This document shows, one piece after another, positions 12,063 through 26,038 of a stretch of DNA of 64,000 nucleotides. The first letter of the stretch is position 1. Each line of letters starts with the position of its first letter. Under the pieces are notes generated by a model. That model saw only the letters and a program-made list of their open reading frames with translations. It did no database searches and had not been told where the DNA came from. Made by a program: the position numbers and the translations under genes. The DNA lies in NCBI GenBank assembly GCA_016935555.1, contig JAFGQR010000050.1, positions 1 to 64,000 of the forward strand, in the 5' to 3' direction. The stretch is from Verrucomicrobiota bacterium. Its GTDB lineage: Bacteria > Verrucomicrobiota > Verrucomicrobiia > Limisphaerales > JAFGQR01.

Positions 12063-15000
12063 ATGAAACCGACGAATCAAACATGGAGTATTTGCTGGGT
12101 TGTGGCGTGGCTGAGCGCGGCGGCCCTTGCCTGGGGCCAGGACAGGGCAGATGGGGCGACGACGGACGAGGGCAGCCTGCCCGAGAGCGCCCACGCGGCT
12201 GCCCTGGGCTCCGGACATGGGCAGGACAAGGTGCCGCCCGTGCTGGAGTGCGCGGCCGACCGGACGGTGGAATGCGGTGAGGCTTGGTCGTTCGATGCGC
12301 CGACGGCCACCGACAACAGTGGCGATGAGAACGTCGTCGTGACCATTCTCAACACCGTGACCAACGCCGGGTGCGGGGACAGCCTGGTGGCCCAGCGCAC
12401 CTGGCAGGCCGAGGACCGTGCCGGCAACGTCTCCGACCCTTGCACTCAAACGGTGACTGTCAGCGACACCACACCCCCCGTGCTGACGTGCGCCCCGGCC
12501 AAGACCGTCGAGTGCGGCCAGCCATGGGCATTCGATGTGCCGGTGGCGAGCGACGCGTGCGTGTTCAATTCCATGATTTACAACAACGCGACCAACGACC
12601 TGAACAACCGCTTCGAACCGGGCCCGACGGAGGTCGGCGACGAAATCGTCCTCGAGGGCACCGCGCGGCACCTCACCCAGTTCGTCTTCGAATACTGGGG
12701 CGTCAACAACACCCAGCCGGAATTCGCCGGCGCCGTCCAGGCCCGCGTCCGGTTCTATGCCAACGACGGCCCCCCGTTCAACGGGTATCCGACCCCGGGC
12801 ACGCTGCTCTACGACAGCGGCGCCTTTGCGGTCAGCGCCACGGCGCGCGCGACGCTGATCATTGAGGATTTCGTGTTGGAGGCGGCGGTGCCGCTGACCG
12901 GGCCGGTGCCGGACACGTTCACGTGGACGGTGCAATTTGGCGGGCTGGAGGCCGGCGACGCGGCGGGGCTGGATCTTTTCTCGCCGCCGGTGGTGGGGAC
13001 GAGCTATCCGGACTACTGGGAGCGCGCGGGCGAGGACTGGATGCTGAAGACCAACGCGGCGGTGACGGTGAATTTTGCGGCGCTGGCGCTGGCGTCCGAG
13101 GAACCGCTGCTTCTCACGGTTCTCAACACGGTCACCAACGCCGCCTGCGGCGCGACCTTTGAGGCCATTCGCACATGGGAGGCCACCGATCCCTGCGGCC
13201 GCACCGCCACCTGCAGCCAGACCGTCACGGTCGTCGACACCACGCCGCCAACCCTCGCCTGCGCCCCGGACAAAACCGTCGAGTGCGGCCAGCCGTGGGC
13301 CTTTGATGTGCCGGTGGCGGGCGACGCGTGCGTGTTCAATTCCCTGATCTACGACAACGCGACCAACGATCTGAGCTACTGCTTCAATCCCGGCACGACG
13401 GAAGTCGGCGACGAAATCGTCCTCGAGGGCGCCGCGCGGCATCTCACCCAGTTCGTGTTCGAATATTGGGGCGTCAACACCACCCAGCCCGAATTCGCCG
13501 GCGCCGTCCAGGCCCGCGTCCGGTTCTATGCCAACGACGGCCCCCCGTTCAACGGGTACCCGACCCCGGGCACGGTGCTCTACGACAGCGGCGCCTTCGG
13601 CCTCGGCGCCACGCCGCGCGCGACGCTGATCATTGAGGATTTCGTGTTCGAGGCGGCGGTGCCGCTAACCGGGCCGGTGCCGGACGCGTTCACGTGGACG
13701 GTGCAATTCAGCGGGCTGGAGGTCGGCGACGCGGCCGGGCTGGATATCTATTCGCCGCCGGTGGTGGGGGGGAGTTATCCCGATTACTGGGAGCGCGCCG
13801 GCGGCGGCTGGCTGCTGAAGACCAATGCGGCGGCGGCGGTGGATTTCGCCGCGCTGGCGCTGGCGTCCGAGGAACCGCTGCTGCTGAGGGTGGCCAACAC
13901 GGTCACCAACGCCGCCTGCGGCGCCACCCTCGAAGCCACCCGCACGTGGGAGGTCACCGATCCCTGCAACCACACCGCCACCTGCAGCCAGACCGTCACG
14001 GTGGTGGACACCACACCCCCCGCGCTGGTCTGCGCCCTGGACAAGACCGTCGAGTGCGGTCAGCCGTGGGCGTTCGACGCGCCGGCGGCCAGCGACGCGT
14101 GCGGGCCCGAGGTGCTGGTCGGCGTGCTGGACATCGTGACCAACGCCTCACCCGCCGGCACGCTGGTGGCAGCGTGCACCTGGGTGGCGACCGATTCGTG
14201 CGGCCTGACGGCGACCTGCAGCCAGGAGGTCACAGTCAGCGACACCACCCCTCCGACCCTGGTCTGCCCTGCCAACCTGACGGTAAATTGCGACGTGGCA
14301 CTGCCACCCGCCGATCCCGAAAGCGTCGTCGCGGCCGACAACTGCGTTGTTCCGCCAGTGGTGACGCATGGGGGCGATGTCGAGTCCGGCACCCTGCCGC
14401 GTGTGGTTACGCGCACGTATCGCGCAACCGACGGGAGCGGCAACGCGGCCACGTGCGACCAGACCATCACCTTCCGCGATGTCGCGTCGGCGCCGCCGGC
14501 CATCACCGAGCAGCCCCGCAGCCGCACCAACAACGTCGGCACCCTGGCCACGTTCACCCTGGGCGCCGCCTCCTGCGAGGCGCCGACGTTCCAATGGTAC
14601 TTCAATGACGCGCTTCTTGCCGGCGAGACCGGGGCCACGCTGGCGCTGGACAGCGTCACGCTGGCCCAGGCCGGCGATTATTATGCCGTCGCGCTGAACA
14701 CCGCCGGCGCCTCCACCAGCCAGCTCGCGCGCCTGACGGTCAACCGCCCGCCGGTCGCGGCAGCCGATGCTTTCAGCGCGACGACCGACGCGGCGCTGGT
14801 CATTCCCGGCGCCGCCCTGCTTGCCAACGACACCGATGCCGACGGCGATCTCCTGCGGGTTCTGGCGGTCAGCAGCCCCAGCGACCAGGGCGGCACGGTG
14901 GTCCTCAACGGCACCGACCTCACCTACACGCCCCCACGGCTCTACGCCGGGCCGGACTTTTTCTTCTACACCGTCGCCGACGGCCGCGGCGGATTCGACA

Positions 15001-15266
15001 CCACCCAGGTCGATGTCTCCGTGGCCAGTCCCCGCGTGCTGGAGCCGGGTCAGCTGGAAATCCTCAACACGGTCGACGGCCAATACCTGTTGCGGTTCAA
15101 GGGCGATCCGTCGCGCGACTACGAAGTCCGCATGACCCGCCACCTGAACGACCCCATTCCCTGGGAGACCGTCGGCACCGTCACCACGGACGCCAACGGC
15201 GACGCCCAGTTCGTGGTTGCCGACCCGCCCTGGCCCATGGCGTTCTTCCGATGCCGCGCGCCGTAG
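12063..15266 (+). CDS. Large secreted HYR-like/Ig-like/cadherin-like repeat protein
   Basis: Signal peptide; repeated PxLxCAPDKTVECGQPWAFD...RTWEATDPCGRTATCSQTVTVVDTTPP; Ig-like TFQWYFNDALLAGETGATL; LLANDTDADGDLLRVL; C-terminus AFFRCRAP. Confidence 0.9.
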   Translation: MKPTNQTWSICWVVAWLSAAALAWGQDRADGATTDEGSLPESAHAAALGSGHGQDKVPPVLECAADRTVECGEAWSFDAPTATDNSGDENVVVTILNTVTNAGCGDSLVAQRTWQAEDRAGNVSDPCTQTVTVSDTTPPVLTCAPAKTVECGQPWAFDVPVASDACVFNSMIYNNATNDLNNRFEPGPTEVGDEIVLEGTARHLTQFVFEYWGVNNTQPEFAGAVQARVRFYANDGPPFNGYPTPGTLLYDSGAFAVSATARATLIIEDFVLEAAVPLTGPVPDTFTWTVQFGGLEAGDAAGLDLFSPPVVGTSYPDYWERAGEDWMLKTNAAVTVNFAALALASEEPLLLTVLNTVTNAACGATFEAIRTWEATDPCGRTATCSQTVTVVDTTPPTLACAPDKTVECGQPWAFDVPVAGDACVFNSLIYDNATNDLSYCFNPGTTEVGDEIVLEGAARHLTQFVFEYWGVNTTQPEFAGAVQARVRFYANDGPPFNGYPTPGTVLYDSGAFGLGATPRATLIIEDFVFEAAVPLTGPVPDAFTWTVQFSGLEVGDAAGLDIYSPPVVGGSYPDYWERAGGGWLLKTNAAAAVDFAALALASEEPLLLRVANTVTNAACGATLEATRTWEVTDPCNHTATCSQTVTVVDTTPPALVCALDKTVECGQPWAFDAPAASDACGPEVLVGVLDIVTNASPAGTLVAACTWVATDSCGLTATCSQEVTVSDTTPPTLVCPANLTVNCDVALPPADPESVVAADNCVVPPVVTHGGDVESGTLPRVVTRTYRATDGSGNAATCDQTITFRDVASAPPAITEQPRSRTNNVGTLATFTLGAASCEAPTFQWYFNDALLAGETGATLALDSVTLAQAGDYYAVALNTAGASTSQLARLTVNRPPVAAADAFSATTDAALVIPGAALLANDTDADGDLLRVLAVSSPSDQGGTVVLNGTDLTYTPPRLYAGPDFFFYTVADGRGGFDTTQVDVSVASPRVLEPGQLEILNTVDGQYLLRFKGDPSRDYEVRMTRHLNDPIPWETVGTVTTDANGDAQFVVADPPWPMAFFRCRAP
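12480..14021 (+). repeat. In-frame tandem duplication with 771-nt (257-codon) period inside the 12063-15266 CDS
   Basis: Start of the GTGTTCAATTCC segment at 12561 recurs at 13332; long near-identical stretches such as GAATTCGCCGGCGCCGTCCAGGCCCGCGTCCGGTTCTATGCCAACGACGGCCCCCCGTTCAACGGGTA; outer boundaries approximate. Confidence 0.9.
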
Positions 15267-20773: not shown

Positions 20774-21031
20774 GTCCCACCGGCGCGGGTCAATCGCCGT
20801 CCTGCGGCGCTGCGGGGGGCAAGGCCGCGTCTGCCTGGAGTTTCCCCTTGATTTAGGGGTATATTGCTGTTACTTGTTTAATCACTCGAACACACCCAAC
20901 CATGTCCTGCTGTTAAGGATGGCAGCCTGCCGCTTTCGAGATGGTGCCAGGGACGAGCCGTTTTCGCGCGGGTTCTGCTTGAGGACGCGGGGAGGGGGCG
21001 AATGGTGTTGTTTAACCATGGTGTCGCGTCT

Positions 21032-24000
21032 ATGAATAACGTGTTGTGTCCCGCGAAAGCTCGGCGTTCGCCGAAGAAGGCGGCTGCGTGCGTCTCGTGG
21101 CGGCTTTTCCCGGTTTTCCTGGCGGCCTGGGCTCTCCCGGAGCTGCTTCTGGCGGTTCCTCCCTGTTCGCCCGACCTTCAGCCTCCCGCAATCGTCTTTT
21201 GCCCGCCCGATGGGGGGGTCGAATGCGGCACGCCGCTGACCCCTCCGAACACGGGCGGCACGGCGCTGGCGGTGGATGCGTGCGATCCGGCGCCGCTGGT
21301 CACCTACGCCGACCGCGGGCCGCTGACCGTGATGCCGGCGGATCTTGACGGGTGGGTTTTTGCCGTGCAGGGGCTTCCGTTGACGGCCGTGGCGGAAATG
21401 ACCGCGGGGCCGGGCACGCCACCGCTGGGTTCGGGCAGCTTCCATGTCTCCATCGGCGCCAACGGCGAGAACCTCACCGAACTGCGCAACTTCGGCTTCG
21501 ACCAGGTGCCGCTGGCGAAAGTCACCGAACTGTCCTACCGGACCTATCGCACGATGGACGGCGCCGGGCTCAACCGGAGCATTTACCTGATGCTGAATGT
21601 GGACACTGACGGAAACGGGGCCGGCGACGACGTGATTTATTTCGAGCCGCGCTTCCAGAGCGGCAGCAACCCCGCCCTGCCCGACCAGGGGCCGACCGTC
21701 ACGGGCGTCTGGCAGAAGTGGGATGCGCATCATGGCGGCTGGTGGTCCATCAACCATCCCGAGGTCATGACCCCGGGCCCCGGCGTCCAATCCCTGGCCA
21801 CCTACCTCGCCGCCTTCCCGGGCGCGCGCATCGTCAACAGCGTCAGCGGCGGCGGCGTCCGGTTGTCCGCCGGCGGGGGCGCGGGCGCGTGGGATTTCTT
21901 TGACGGCCACGCCGATTACCTGGTGCTGGGCACCAACGGCGTCTCGCAAGCCTACGACTTCGACGTCGCCCCTGCCACCGTTTGCCCGACCGTCATCATC
22001 CGCACCTGGACGGCCGCCGACCAGAGCGGCAACGCTGTGTCATGTTCCCAGAAACTGACCGTCGCCGACACGACGGCTCCCGTGCTGAGCTGCGGCTCGG
22101 ACCGCACGGTGGCATGTCACGAGGCCTGGGATTTTGACGAGCCGACGGCAACCGACGCGTGCGGCGCGGTCACGCTCACCCTCGTGAGCGCCGTCACCAA
22201 CACCACCTGCCCCTTCAGCTTCGTCGCCACCCGCACCTGGCGCGCCATCGACCCGTGCGGCAATGTCGCCGAATGCACCCAGACGGTCAGTTCGGCGGAC
22301 ACGCAGCCCCCGGTGGTGGCGGGTCCGGCGGACGTGACCGTGGAGTGCACCGAGAGCGTCGCGCCGGCCGCCACCGGCACTGCCACGGCCTCCGACAACT
22401 GCGATCCCCAGCCCACCGTCACCTGGAGCGACACCGAGACGCCCGGCGCCTGCCCGCAAGAGCGCGTCATCACGCGGACATGGACCGCCACCGACGCGTG
22501 CGGCAACGCCGCGAGCGTCGACCAAACCATCACCGTGGCCGACCGCACGCCTCCGGTGGTTACTTGCCCGCCGTCCGAGACCGTCGAGTGCGGCACGCCG
22601 TGGAGTTTCGACCTGCCCGCCGGCACGGATGCCTGCGGCCCCGTGACCGTCACCGAGGTGAGCACCGTCACCAACTCGGCCTGCGGCGACACCATGACCG
22701 TGTCCCGGACCTGGCTGGTGGCGGATGCCTGCGGCCTCGGGGTGCCCTGCGTCCAGACCATCACCGTGCAGGACACCCTTGCCCCGATCGTGACGTGCGT
22801 TCCCGACAAGACCGTCGAGTGCGGCCTGCCGTGGGCGTTCGACGTGCCGAGCTACAGCGACGAATGCGTCTTCGAGTCGCTCGTGTTCGACAATTCCGTC
22901 AACGACGCCCAGTGGCGGTTCAGCAGCGGCACCACCGAGGTCGGCGATGAAATCGTGCTCGCCGGCGCCGCGCGTCAGATCACTCGGTTCGCCTTCGAAT
23001 ACTTCGGCGTCAACCGGAACACCCAGGCCGAGGAGTTCGAGGGCAGCGTCACCGCCCGCGTCCGGTTCTATGCCAACGACGGCCCGGGCGAATACCCCTC
23101 CCCCCAGACGGTGCTGTACGACAGCGGCGAGTTCGCGGTGCCGGCCACGGTGCGATCGGTGGTGACCATCGAGGATTTCCAGCTCGAAGCCGTGGTCCCC
23201 CTGGCGGGCAACGTGCCAGACTCGTTCACGTGGACCGTCCAATTCGGCGGGCTCGGCCCGAATGACGACGTCGGCCTGGACATTTACAACCCGATCGTCC
23301 TGGGGCTCAGCTACCCGGATTACTGGGAACGCACCCCGCAGGGCTGGCAATTGAAAGCCCATCCCGACGTCAAGATCGACTTTGCCGCGCGGATCGAGGC
23401 GGCCCGGGAGAACGTGCAGGCCAGGGTGCTCAGCACCGTCACCAACACCCTCGACGGCCAGACCATCGTCGCGACGCGCACCTGGGAGGTCGTGGACCCG
23501 TGCGACAACCGCAGCGAGTGCTCCCAAAATGTCACCGTTCTCGACTCCATACCCCCGGTTGTGACATGCCCCGGCATCATCACCACCAACATCGTCTACG
23601 GCCCCTGCGAACAGGTGGTCGCATTCACCACAACGGCCACCGACGCCGGCATCCCCGTCCCGGTGGTGTGCGTTCCGTCGAGCGGATCCGCGTTTCCGAA
23701 AGGCACCACCACGGTCACCTGCACCGCCACTGACGCCCGCGGCAACCAGGGATCGTGCAGTTTCCCCGTCGTCGTGGTCCCGCCGACCTTCACCCAGACC
23801 GTCAACCGCCTGATTCCCGACGGCGACCCCGGCGGATTGACCAACCGTCTCACGGTGACCACGCCGATCACGTTCCTGACCGACGTCGAGGTCACCCTCA
23901 ACCTCGCCCACAGCTGGAACGGCGACCTCCATGCCTTCCTCGTCCACAACACCGGCCGGGCCGTTCTCCTCAACCGGGTCGGCCGCCGCGCCGGGGACTT

Positions 24001-26038
24001 GCTCGGCTACAGCGACGACGGCTTCAGCGTCACCCTGGACGACGAAGCCGCCGGCGGAGACATCCACGTCTACCGGATGCAGTTGTTCGGCAACCCCACC
24101 ACGCCTCTCGTCGGACCGCTCACCGGCCTCTGGGCGCCCGACGGACGCGACACGCCCCCGGCCCAGGCCCTCGAGTCCGACCCGCGCACCGCCCTGCTGA
24201 GCGCCTTCCGGGGCATGGACCCGAACGGCGTCTGGACGCTGGTGGTGGCGGACCTGCAGCCGGGCGATGCCGGCTTGCTGCAGAGCTGGGGCGTGCAGTT
24301 CTGCGGCGAACTGGGCGTCCCCCCGACCATCACCGCGCCGCCGGTGTCCGTCACCGTCGAATGCGGCACCGACGCGACCTTCAGCGTCACCGCCATCGGC
24401 TCGCCGCCGCTGTCGTATCAGTGGTATTTCGGATCCGCTCCCATCGCCGGAGCGACGGCGGCCACCTTGACCGTGCCGGGTGTGCGCTACGAGGATTTGG
24501 GGGATTACTCGGTGGTGGTCCGCAACGACCACGGCCAGGCCACCAGCACCGCGGCCACCTTGAGCCTCGTGGATACCCGGCTCCCGGAAATCACCTGCCC
24601 GCCCGCGATCACCGTGCCCATCCCGCCCGGCCAATGCTCCGTCGTCGTCCCCAATTACGGGGTTTCCGCCAGCGACGCCTGCGGACCCGTCACGGTTGTG
24701 TGCGTGCCGCCCGCAGGCCAGCCTCTGAGCGCGGGAACCACCCCGGTCCATTGCATTGCCACCGATGCGGCTCTCAACACGGCCGAGTGCAGCTTCGTCG
24801 TCACGGCGCAGGACACGGAAGCCCCCATGCTGGCGGCCTGCCCCGCCGACATCACCGTCGGCACGCAGCAGGGCCAGTGCGCCGCCGCGGTTCCGTTCAC
24901 GCCTCCGGCGCCCACCGACAACTGCCCCGGCACGGCGGTGACCTGCGTCCCGCCCCCGGGAGCAATCTTTCCCGCCGGCGTCACCACCGTGGTCTGCACC
25001 GCTGTCGACGTCGGCGGCAACCAGGCCGCCTGCACCTTCACCGTCACCGTCCTCGACACCGAAGCGCCCGAAGTCTGCATGGACCCGCCCGTCCTCCGCT
25101 CCGCCGGGAGCGAGGACGATTTTGCCGGGCCGGAGCCGGCTTTGGCCAGCGCCACGTTGCAGGAGTACGTTGCCGCGCAGGCGCTGGCGCTGCGCCATTT
25201 CGATTCGCCGGACCCGGATCGCTGGCTGGCGCACTCCTTCGGCGGCCTGCCGGCAAACCTGTCCAGCGCGCGCTTGCGCATTCACGTCCGGGCGCTCGGC
25301 ACCGCGTCGGCCGAAGACACCCTCCAACTCGCCTTCAGCCAGCCGGGCGGATCCCTGCGCGCCGAACAATGGACCCGCCGCTTCGGGTTGTTCGAGGCGG
25401 TGCCGGGACTGCTCCCGGCCACCTGGAGCTCGGGAACCGAAGCCGAATTCGAGCTGGATCTCGCCCGCCTGCCCAACGCCGACGGCACCTTTGCGAATCT
25501 GATGGGTGCGGCGCGGGACGCGGGGGCGTTGGACGTGCTGGCCGGCAACGACACGGATGTCGACTATGTCGTTCTCGAGGTGGAGACCTGCCTTTGCAGC
25601 ACGGACCTCGTCGTGGACAGCGACCCCGCCTTGTGCGGCGCCCGTGTCCCGTTCCCGCCGCCACTCTTCTTTGACAACTGCGATCCGAATCCGGGGGTGG
25701 TCTGCACGCCGCCGTCGGGGAGCGTGTTTGCGCCGGGCGTCACCCGGGTGGATTGCCACGCCATCGACGCCGGCGGCAACATCGGGCGATGCAGTTTCAA
25801 CGTGATCGTGAACGACATCGGCCCCAAGCTGAGCTTCTTCCGGTCGGGGGCGGACCTGGTGCTGAGCTGGCCCGTGGGGTGCGGCGCCTGGCAGCTCGTC
25901 GAAGCCGCCGACCTGGCCAACCCCGTGTCCTGGGTCCCCTCCTCAGCCCCCGTCTCCATCGTGGGATCCGTCTATCGCGCAACCGTTCCCGTCAGCACGC
26001 CGCTCAAGTTCTTTGCCCTCCGCAGCCCTGTGCCTTAG
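21032..26038 (+). CDS. Giant secreted HYR-like repeat protein with P-domain-like and Ig-like modules
   Basis: Many HYR-like repeats (ECG..D.C...TATDACGNAASVDQTITVADRTPP); P-domain-like LNLAHSWNGDLHAFLVHNTGRAVLLNRVG...GVWTLVVADLQPGDAGLLQSWGVQFCG; C-terminus KFFALRSPVP. Confidence 0.9.
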   Translation: MNNVLCPAKARRSPKKAAACVSWRLFPVFLAAWALPELLLAVPPCSPDLQPPAIVFCPPDGGVECGTPLTPPNTGGTALAVDACDPAPLVTYADRGPLTVMPADLDGWVFAVQGLPLTAVAEMTAGPGTPPLGSGSFHVSIGANGENLTELRNFGFDQVPLAKVTELSYRTYRTMDGAGLNRSIYLMLNVDTDGNGAGDDVIYFEPRFQSGSNPALPDQGPTVTGVWQKWDAHHGGWWSINHPEVMTPGPGVQSLATYLAAFPGARIVNSVSGGGVRLSAGGGAGAWDFFDGHADYLVLGTNGVSQAYDFDVAPATVCPTVIIRTWTAADQSGNAVSCSQKLTVADTTAPVLSCGSDRTVACHEAWDFDEPTATDACGAVTLTLVSAVTNTTCPFSFVATRTWRAIDPCGNVAECTQTVSSADTQPPVVAGPADVTVECTESVAPAATGTATASDNCDPQPTVTWSDTETPGACPQERVITRTWTATDACGNAASVDQTITVADRTPPVVTCPPSETVECGTPWSFDLPAGTDACGPVTVTEVSTVTNSACGDTMTVSRTWLVADACGLGVPCVQTITVQDTLAPIVTCVPDKTVECGLPWAFDVPSYSDECVFESLVFDNSVNDAQWRFSSGTTEVGDEIVLAGAARQITRFAFEYFGVNRNTQAEEFEGSVTARVRFYANDGPGEYPSPQTVLYDSGEFAVPATVRSVVTIEDFQLEAVVPLAGNVPDSFTWTVQFGGLGPNDDVGLDIYNPIVLGLSYPDYWERTPQGWQLKAHPDVKIDFAARIEAARENVQARVLSTVTNTLDGQTIVATRTWEVVDPCDNRSECSQNVTVLDSIPPVVTCPGIITTNIVYGPCEQVVAFTTTATDAGIPVPVVCVPSSGSAFPKGTTTVTCTATDARGNQGSCSFPVVVVPPTFTQTVNRLIPDGDPGGLTNRLTVTTPITFLTDVEVTLNLAHSWNGDLHAFLVHNTGRAVLLNRVGRRAGDLLGYSDDGFSVTLDDEAAGGDIHVYRMQLFGNPTTPLVGPLTGLWAPDGRDTPPAQALESDPRTALLSAFRGMDPNGVWTLVVADLQPGDAGLLQSWGVQFCGELGVPPTITAPPVSVTVECGTDATFSVTAIGSPPLSYQWYFGSAPIAGATAATLTVPGVRYEDLGDYSVVVRNDHGQATSTAATLSLVDTRLPEITCPPAITVPIPPGQCSVVVPNYGVSASDACGPVTVVCVPPAGQPLSAGTTPVHCIATDAALNTAECSFVVTAQDTEAPMLAACPADITVGTQQGQCAAAVPFTPPAPTDNCPGTAVTCVPPPGAIFPAGVTTVVCTAVDVGGNQAACTFTVTVLDTEAPEVCMDPPVLRSAGSEDDFAGPEPALASATLQEYVAAQALALRHFDSPDPDRWLAHSFGGLPANLSSARLRIHVRALGTASAEDTLQLAFSQPGGSLRAEQWTRRFGLFEAVPGLLPATWSSGTEAEFELDLARLPNADGTFANLMGAARDAGALDVLAGNDTDVDYVVLEVETCLCSTDLVVDSDPALCGARVPFPPPLFFDNCDPNPGVVCTPPSGSVFAPGVTRVDCHAIDAGGNIGRCSFNVIVNDIGPKLSFFRSGADLVLSWPVGCGAWQLVEAADLANPVSWVPSSAPVSIVGSVYRATVPVSTPLKFFALRSPVP

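Follow-up and report, generated by a model that had tools for sequence, protein, structure and literature searches.

Several described systems present functional domains outside the cell or nest one domain within another. In HycP of Clostridium cellulolyticum, a CBM3 accompanies 23 HYR modules (PMC3723904), and in modular type IV pilins (PilB, for example) a small structural module presents a bulky functional module, with payloads that are numerous and vary from species to species (PMC8179133). Insertions of the A1-B-A2 type, in which one domain interrupts another, are represented by 48,551 events in a 2026 survey. In 77% of these the host is the larger partner (median, 199 aa, against 115 aa for the insert); the termini lie close together, and positions of insertion are uniform (PMC13114784). 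Small PEP-CTERM proteins, which are exosortase substrates, are a further point of comparison.

The protein described here, P0001, is encoded in a window of 64,000 nucleotides of a Verrucomicrobiota genome and has features in common with each of these. Like HycP, it has a stalk of HYR Ig-like units with additional modules, but the CBM of HycP is C-terminal, whereas the P0001 payloads lie inside single HYR units. It resembles the PilB-type pilins in that a small module would present varied bulky payloads, although the pilins have no HYR host and use a different export machinery. As in the surveyed A1-B-A2 proteins, one domain interrupts another and the insert is itself an independent domain; in contrast to that survey, the host is only ∼78 aa, the payloads are 157 to 445 aa, and a few loops recur as sites. 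Domain insertion is a known kind of arrangement, and it is cargo larger than its ∼78-aa host that reverses the usual size rule. The similarity to small PEP-CTERM proteins is that a domain of the type of two of the payloads (INS1 and INS2) can form the whole mature protein and that the source genome has an exosortase, but P0001 lacks a PEP-CTERM match and has its payloads inside HYR units. In the literature searched, which was largely open-access, HYR units were not found described as hosts for inserted domains, in Verrucomicrobiota or elsewhere. We favor, with a probability of about 0.6, the reading that HYR_4C units are loop carriers that would display inserted domains outside the cell, the display role being suggested by the architecture.

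The P0001 gene spans positions 21032 to 26038 and, like all features of the window described here, is on the forward strand; a further in-frame ATG is at 21002. The first-pass annotation called the product a giant surface protein, and at 1,668 aa "giant" is generous. The N-terminus is signal-peptide-like, and Pfam profiles match six HYR stretches together with HYR_4C, Ig, and P_proprotein domains. P0001 belongs to both the HYR family (PF02494, 153.5 bits against a curated cutoff of 21.7) and the HYR_4C family (PF23237, 34.3 bits against a cutoff of 27), but not to the PEP-CTERM family, with no PF07589 match at E values up to 1. Three intact HYR_4C units (22070-22300, 22301-22543, and 22547-22774) stand in a row at 22070 to 22774; the P_proprotein-containing stretch (23777 to 24313) sits between units and inside none of them, and the Ig domain is likewise in series with other domains. 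The source genome is a 5.3-Mb draft in 200 contigs, one of which supplies the window, and it has two exosortase matches and seven PEP-CTERM tails. Relatives detected by sequence are nearly all from Verrucomicrobiota metagenome-assembled genomes, several of them labelled subdivision 3 or Limisphaerales.

Three modules interrupt the repeats at coordinates that agree within a few bases with those first proposed: INS1 at ∼21320 to 21961, INS2 at 22868 to 23404, and INS3 at 25076 to 25591. In the INS1-carrying HYR_4C unit, the first half (21179 to 21319) matches positions 3 to 42 of the 78-position HMM and the second half (21962 to 22069) matches positions 45 to 78, with the payload in the hairpin between host strands 4 and 5 (the gamma site). 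INS2 occupies the loop between host strands 3 and 4 (the beta site); its upstream flank (22775 to 22867) matches HMM positions 1 to 42, and its downstream flank (23405 to 23545) matches positions 25 to 78, the overlap being a spurious match into the payload. The two halves of each host were joined and scored with a model built from intact units only, with payload borders taken from homologues. The INS1 halves score 54.3 bits joined versus 22 and 36 separately, the INS2 halves score 87.3 bits joined versus 35 and 52 separately, and the joined hosts of two INS2 units in the neighboring gene (12063 to 15266) score 108 and 101 bits; the median of 193 intact units is 76 bits (5 to 95%, 33 to 111). 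Because the joined halves score like intact units and match complementary HMM positions, the flanks of INS1 and of INS2 are, at the level of sequence, complementary halves of one domain, more than would be expected by chance. The second half of the unit thus resumes after both inserts, as the first-pass annotation had proposed for all three, and, by sequence, INS1 has the A1-B-A2 arrangement of a nested insertion. The same annotation had put INS1 and INS2 in one shared loop, which alignment to intact units rules out. INS2 follows "DEC", with "SYSDEC" upstream and "(R)ENVQARVLSTVTN" downstream, the latter equivalent to "GPVTVTEVSTVTN" in the alignment, and INS1 lies one strand later in the next hairpin, between "PLVTYADRG" and "VCPTVIIRTW".

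Structure prediction places INS2 within its host in the same way. An AlphaFold model of 22544 to 23545, covering the third intact unit and the INS2 unit, was built from 22 aligned rows drawn from the window or from loci on genome contigs and has a mean pLDDT of 92.5. The intact unit has strands at 5-7, 12-15, 26-28, 35-45, 50-60, and 66-76, and the split unit has the same six at an offset of 77 and then 257, with 82-84, 89-92, and 103-105 in the upstream flank and 292-302, 307-317, and 323-333 in the downstream flank. INS2 strands form a separate all-beta block at 111 to 287 between host strands 3 and 4, and it is from this strand pattern that the beta site is assigned to the 3/4 loop and the gamma site to the 4/5 hairpin. 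As modeled, INS2 is nested in one host fold whose full strand set is built from both flanks, judging from strand pattern and confidence; two complete and independent flanking domains, the outcome that would have spoken against nesting, were not predicted for this unit. INS2 is therefore a nested A1-B-A2 insertion by both sequence and model, and the insert also exists alone elsewhere. Foldseek matches the INS2-unit model to the Big_3 Ig-like domain 2kpn (probability, 1.00), which is also found by a profile search with the host (E = 0.016), and together with the six-strand pattern at high pLDDT this identifies the HYR_4C/HYR host as an Ig-like beta-sandwich. The payload has a weak match to the PHR domain 3gbw (probability, 0.98; TM-score over the target, 0.38; E = 0.005). 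The INS1 unit, aligned in four rows, gave an unusable model (pLDDT, 33).

The host cysteines suggest how such a fold may be closed. The first Cys of a unit and the last co-occur strongly (phi = 0.87; 178 different intact units), and the other four correlate weakly (second with fourth, 0.34; third with fifth, 0.30). Of the split beta and gamma units read, nearly all retain this pair, so that the payload has one Cys of the pair before it and the other after it; an NHL-carrying host (L109) lacks the first. A disulfide between these two residues would lock the fold around the payload.

INS3 is at the first strand of its HYR unit, consistent with the first-pass view that the third module is nearer the start of its unit and that the sites are not all identical. 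The only host residues before the payload are "TEAPEV" (25058 to 25075), extending to "TEAPEVC" with the Cys that follows, and the HYR unit after it (25592 to 25810) matches HYR model positions 4 to 75. As only this short stretch precedes the payload, insertion and placement between domains are inseparable by sequence, and the proposal that a unit is interrupted and then resumes is carried by INS1 and INS2. The alpha position, around the first strand "TTPPV..C", has the same character throughout, with only a strand or linker ahead of the payload. INS3 is its cargo in the window and in genome G072; a second contig of the source genome (C90) has an orphan module there, G037 has two modules, and G088 (twice) and G091 have "NLVPNPxFE"-like modules. 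INS3 relatives at loci L069 to L073 are downstream of HYR units and not within one. Of the eight alpha cases, six have a Cys flanking the payload at each end (the window, L068, L083, two in L105, and L114) and two do not (both in L085); such pairs might staple the base of the payload. The orphan module on C90 (L083, bases 791 to 1372) is 193 aa long, occupies the alpha position in its HYR_4C unit, and has one weak relative among 195 genomes of the phylum.

The three P0001 payloads match no named family. The HMM search proposed by the first-pass annotation finds no Pfam family with a credible match to the INS1, INS2, or INS3 region, and credible NCBIfam or PDB sequence matches are similarly absent where searched. 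INS2 is widespread: among 97 genomes of the order, 45 contain it, and many copies are solitary in a small secreted protein composed of a signal peptide, INS2, and either "VPEP..." with PEP-CTERM or another C-terminal tail. The borders of the solitary and embedded forms agree, reading "AQAE/LVYDNS...FAARINA/VPEP" in the former and "DECVFES/LVFDNS...FAARIEA/ARENV" in the host. INS1 has a relative that is a 285-aa PEP-CTERM protein in another genome and a second copy, 55% identical and at the same host position, in G021; viral contigs contain no INS1 relative. By alignment, the borders of the embedded payloads are those of whole mature small secreted proteins found elsewhere between a signal peptide and a PEP-CTERM anchor.

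A survey of HYR_4C units in these 97 genomes (at least 40 positives, with chosen loci read) shows that other cargo occupies the same loops. The gamma site holds INS1 (the window and G021) or a 250-aa module (G039 and G021); its occupant in VER1 (L049/L125) is a four-domain block, Big_9-fn3-malectin-Big_9. At the beta site there is INS2 in the window, in the neighboring gene (twice), in VER1 (twice), in KTt_bin-1485, in GL140, and in G008, and an NHL propeller in G040. Reuse of one small host domain is therefore seen for two payloads in P0001, for INS2 twice more in the neighboring gene at 12063 to 15266, and for the same or other payloads in several further genomes, in agreement with the original proposal of a common carrier; such carriage is a genuine and repeated feature of this verrucomicrobial order. 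A single HYR_4C unit of the VER1 protein holds two payloads, INS2 at beta and the Big_9-fn3-malectin-Big_9 block at gamma, and in a paralogous unit of the same protein INS2 is present and the gamma loop is empty, reading "TVTNPPVANTLAIQRTW". These units are at aa 1102 to 1804 and 2049 to 2305 of the VER1 reading frame. The flanks of the VER1 gamma block were read for target duplication; a PPVA(N)-like stretch is on both sides, maybe as the native start of Big_9, and nothing is claimed from it. INS2 in G021 and on contig C149 of the source genome is in an earlier loop, before "DNC". The C149 copy (L050, aa 1270 to 1530) is in a mixed host with a HYR_4C-like front and a classical HYR sequence behind, as if recombinant. 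At L048/L129, the contig ends within the final HYR_4C unit, after "VSYLDSTPLQVTGTNL"; this sequence is similar to the start of the INS1 junction, and the unit probably carries another gamma payload.

The neighboring gene indicates how composites multiply. It contains two tandem host-plus-INS2 units (12468 to 14009, 771 bp each, with INS2 at 12561 to 13085 and 13332 to 13856) with 88.7% DNA identity, which are a tandem duplication of host and payload as one block. A tree of 59 INS2 sequences places eight of the nine embedded copies, all but that of G021, in one group (support, 87/66, which is not strong), and a single clade of all nine is not rejected (AU test, P = 0.24). The tree makes one or two original insertions of INS2 into HYR units probable, with later copying as host-plus-payload blocks. 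It does not support INS2 having been inserted into one loop several times over, and reuse of the sites is shown by unrelated payloads.

Other readings of these proteins are less probable. An ordinary string of independent domains, in which each payload simply sits between two HYR units that are truncated or have degenerated, accurately describes the P_proprotein and Ig domains of P0001 and may apply to INS3 and other alpha modules, where only a strand or linker is in front and where relatives at L069 to L073 follow HYR units from outside. Applied to INS1 and INS2 it is improbable, as each flank alone would be without half of its fold, the halves are complementary, and for INS2 the model builds the full strand set. 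Misassembly or faulty binning that joined payloads into the gene might be considered for a draft in 200 contigs, but the reading frame is uninterrupted, composites of the same kind are present in the independent assemblies VER1, KTt_bin-1485, RH-23may17-789, and GL140, and another is on C149 of the source genome, such that an artefact is very improbable.

A more serious alternative, though still an unlikely one, is that nesting is real but neutral, a by-product of recombination in repeat-rich genes with tolerant loops and no display role. Repeats favor recombination, payload sets vary among genomes, and the INS2 composites probably spread by duplication. Against neutrality, unrelated payloads return to the same few loops, the payloads are intact with key residues conserved, and composites are kept in several genera. 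We prefer loop carriage with display, in which HYR_4C units would serve as small, loop-tolerant Ig-like carriers in a secreted protein; each would take up, at one of a few loops, a domain that is bigger than itself and folds independently, and would close round it, gripping both ends. The malectin domain in the VER1 payload points to a binding role, and the payloads would be binding domains, probably glycan- or matrix-binding, displayed sideways from an Ig-like stalk outside the cell; from the architecture, such display would be the most likely purpose. A stronger version is tentative, namely that HYR_4C is a dedicated, reused cargo holder, a disulfide-closed clasp of ∼78 residues whose loops Verrucomicrobiota repeatedly load with whole small secreted proteins (all-beta modules, beta-propellers, and multidomain blocks), turning a PEP-CTERM-type repertoire into repeat-protein cargo.

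If loop carriage is correct, a very small natural domain takes cargo two to six times its own size in several loops, and even two payloads together, providing natural templates for loop-display scaffolds. It would also make testable the limits on domain insertion in Ig folds and the idea that large repeat proteins draw on the same pool of binding domains as small PEP-CTERM proteins. The poor annotation of proteins of this kind would be explained as well, with split host halves lost to profile searches and payloads in unnamed families.

P0001 ends in a tail of ∼75 aa (25811 to 26035) with "FYRL/YRV"-like terminal motifs. The same tail is at the C-terminus of L082, L083, and L125 and of small INS2 proteins such as L020, L027, L028, L036, and L040, and is thus common to unrelated secreted proteins of the lineage, including INS2 proteins that lack PEP-CTERM; it is possibly an alternative sorting or anchoring domain.
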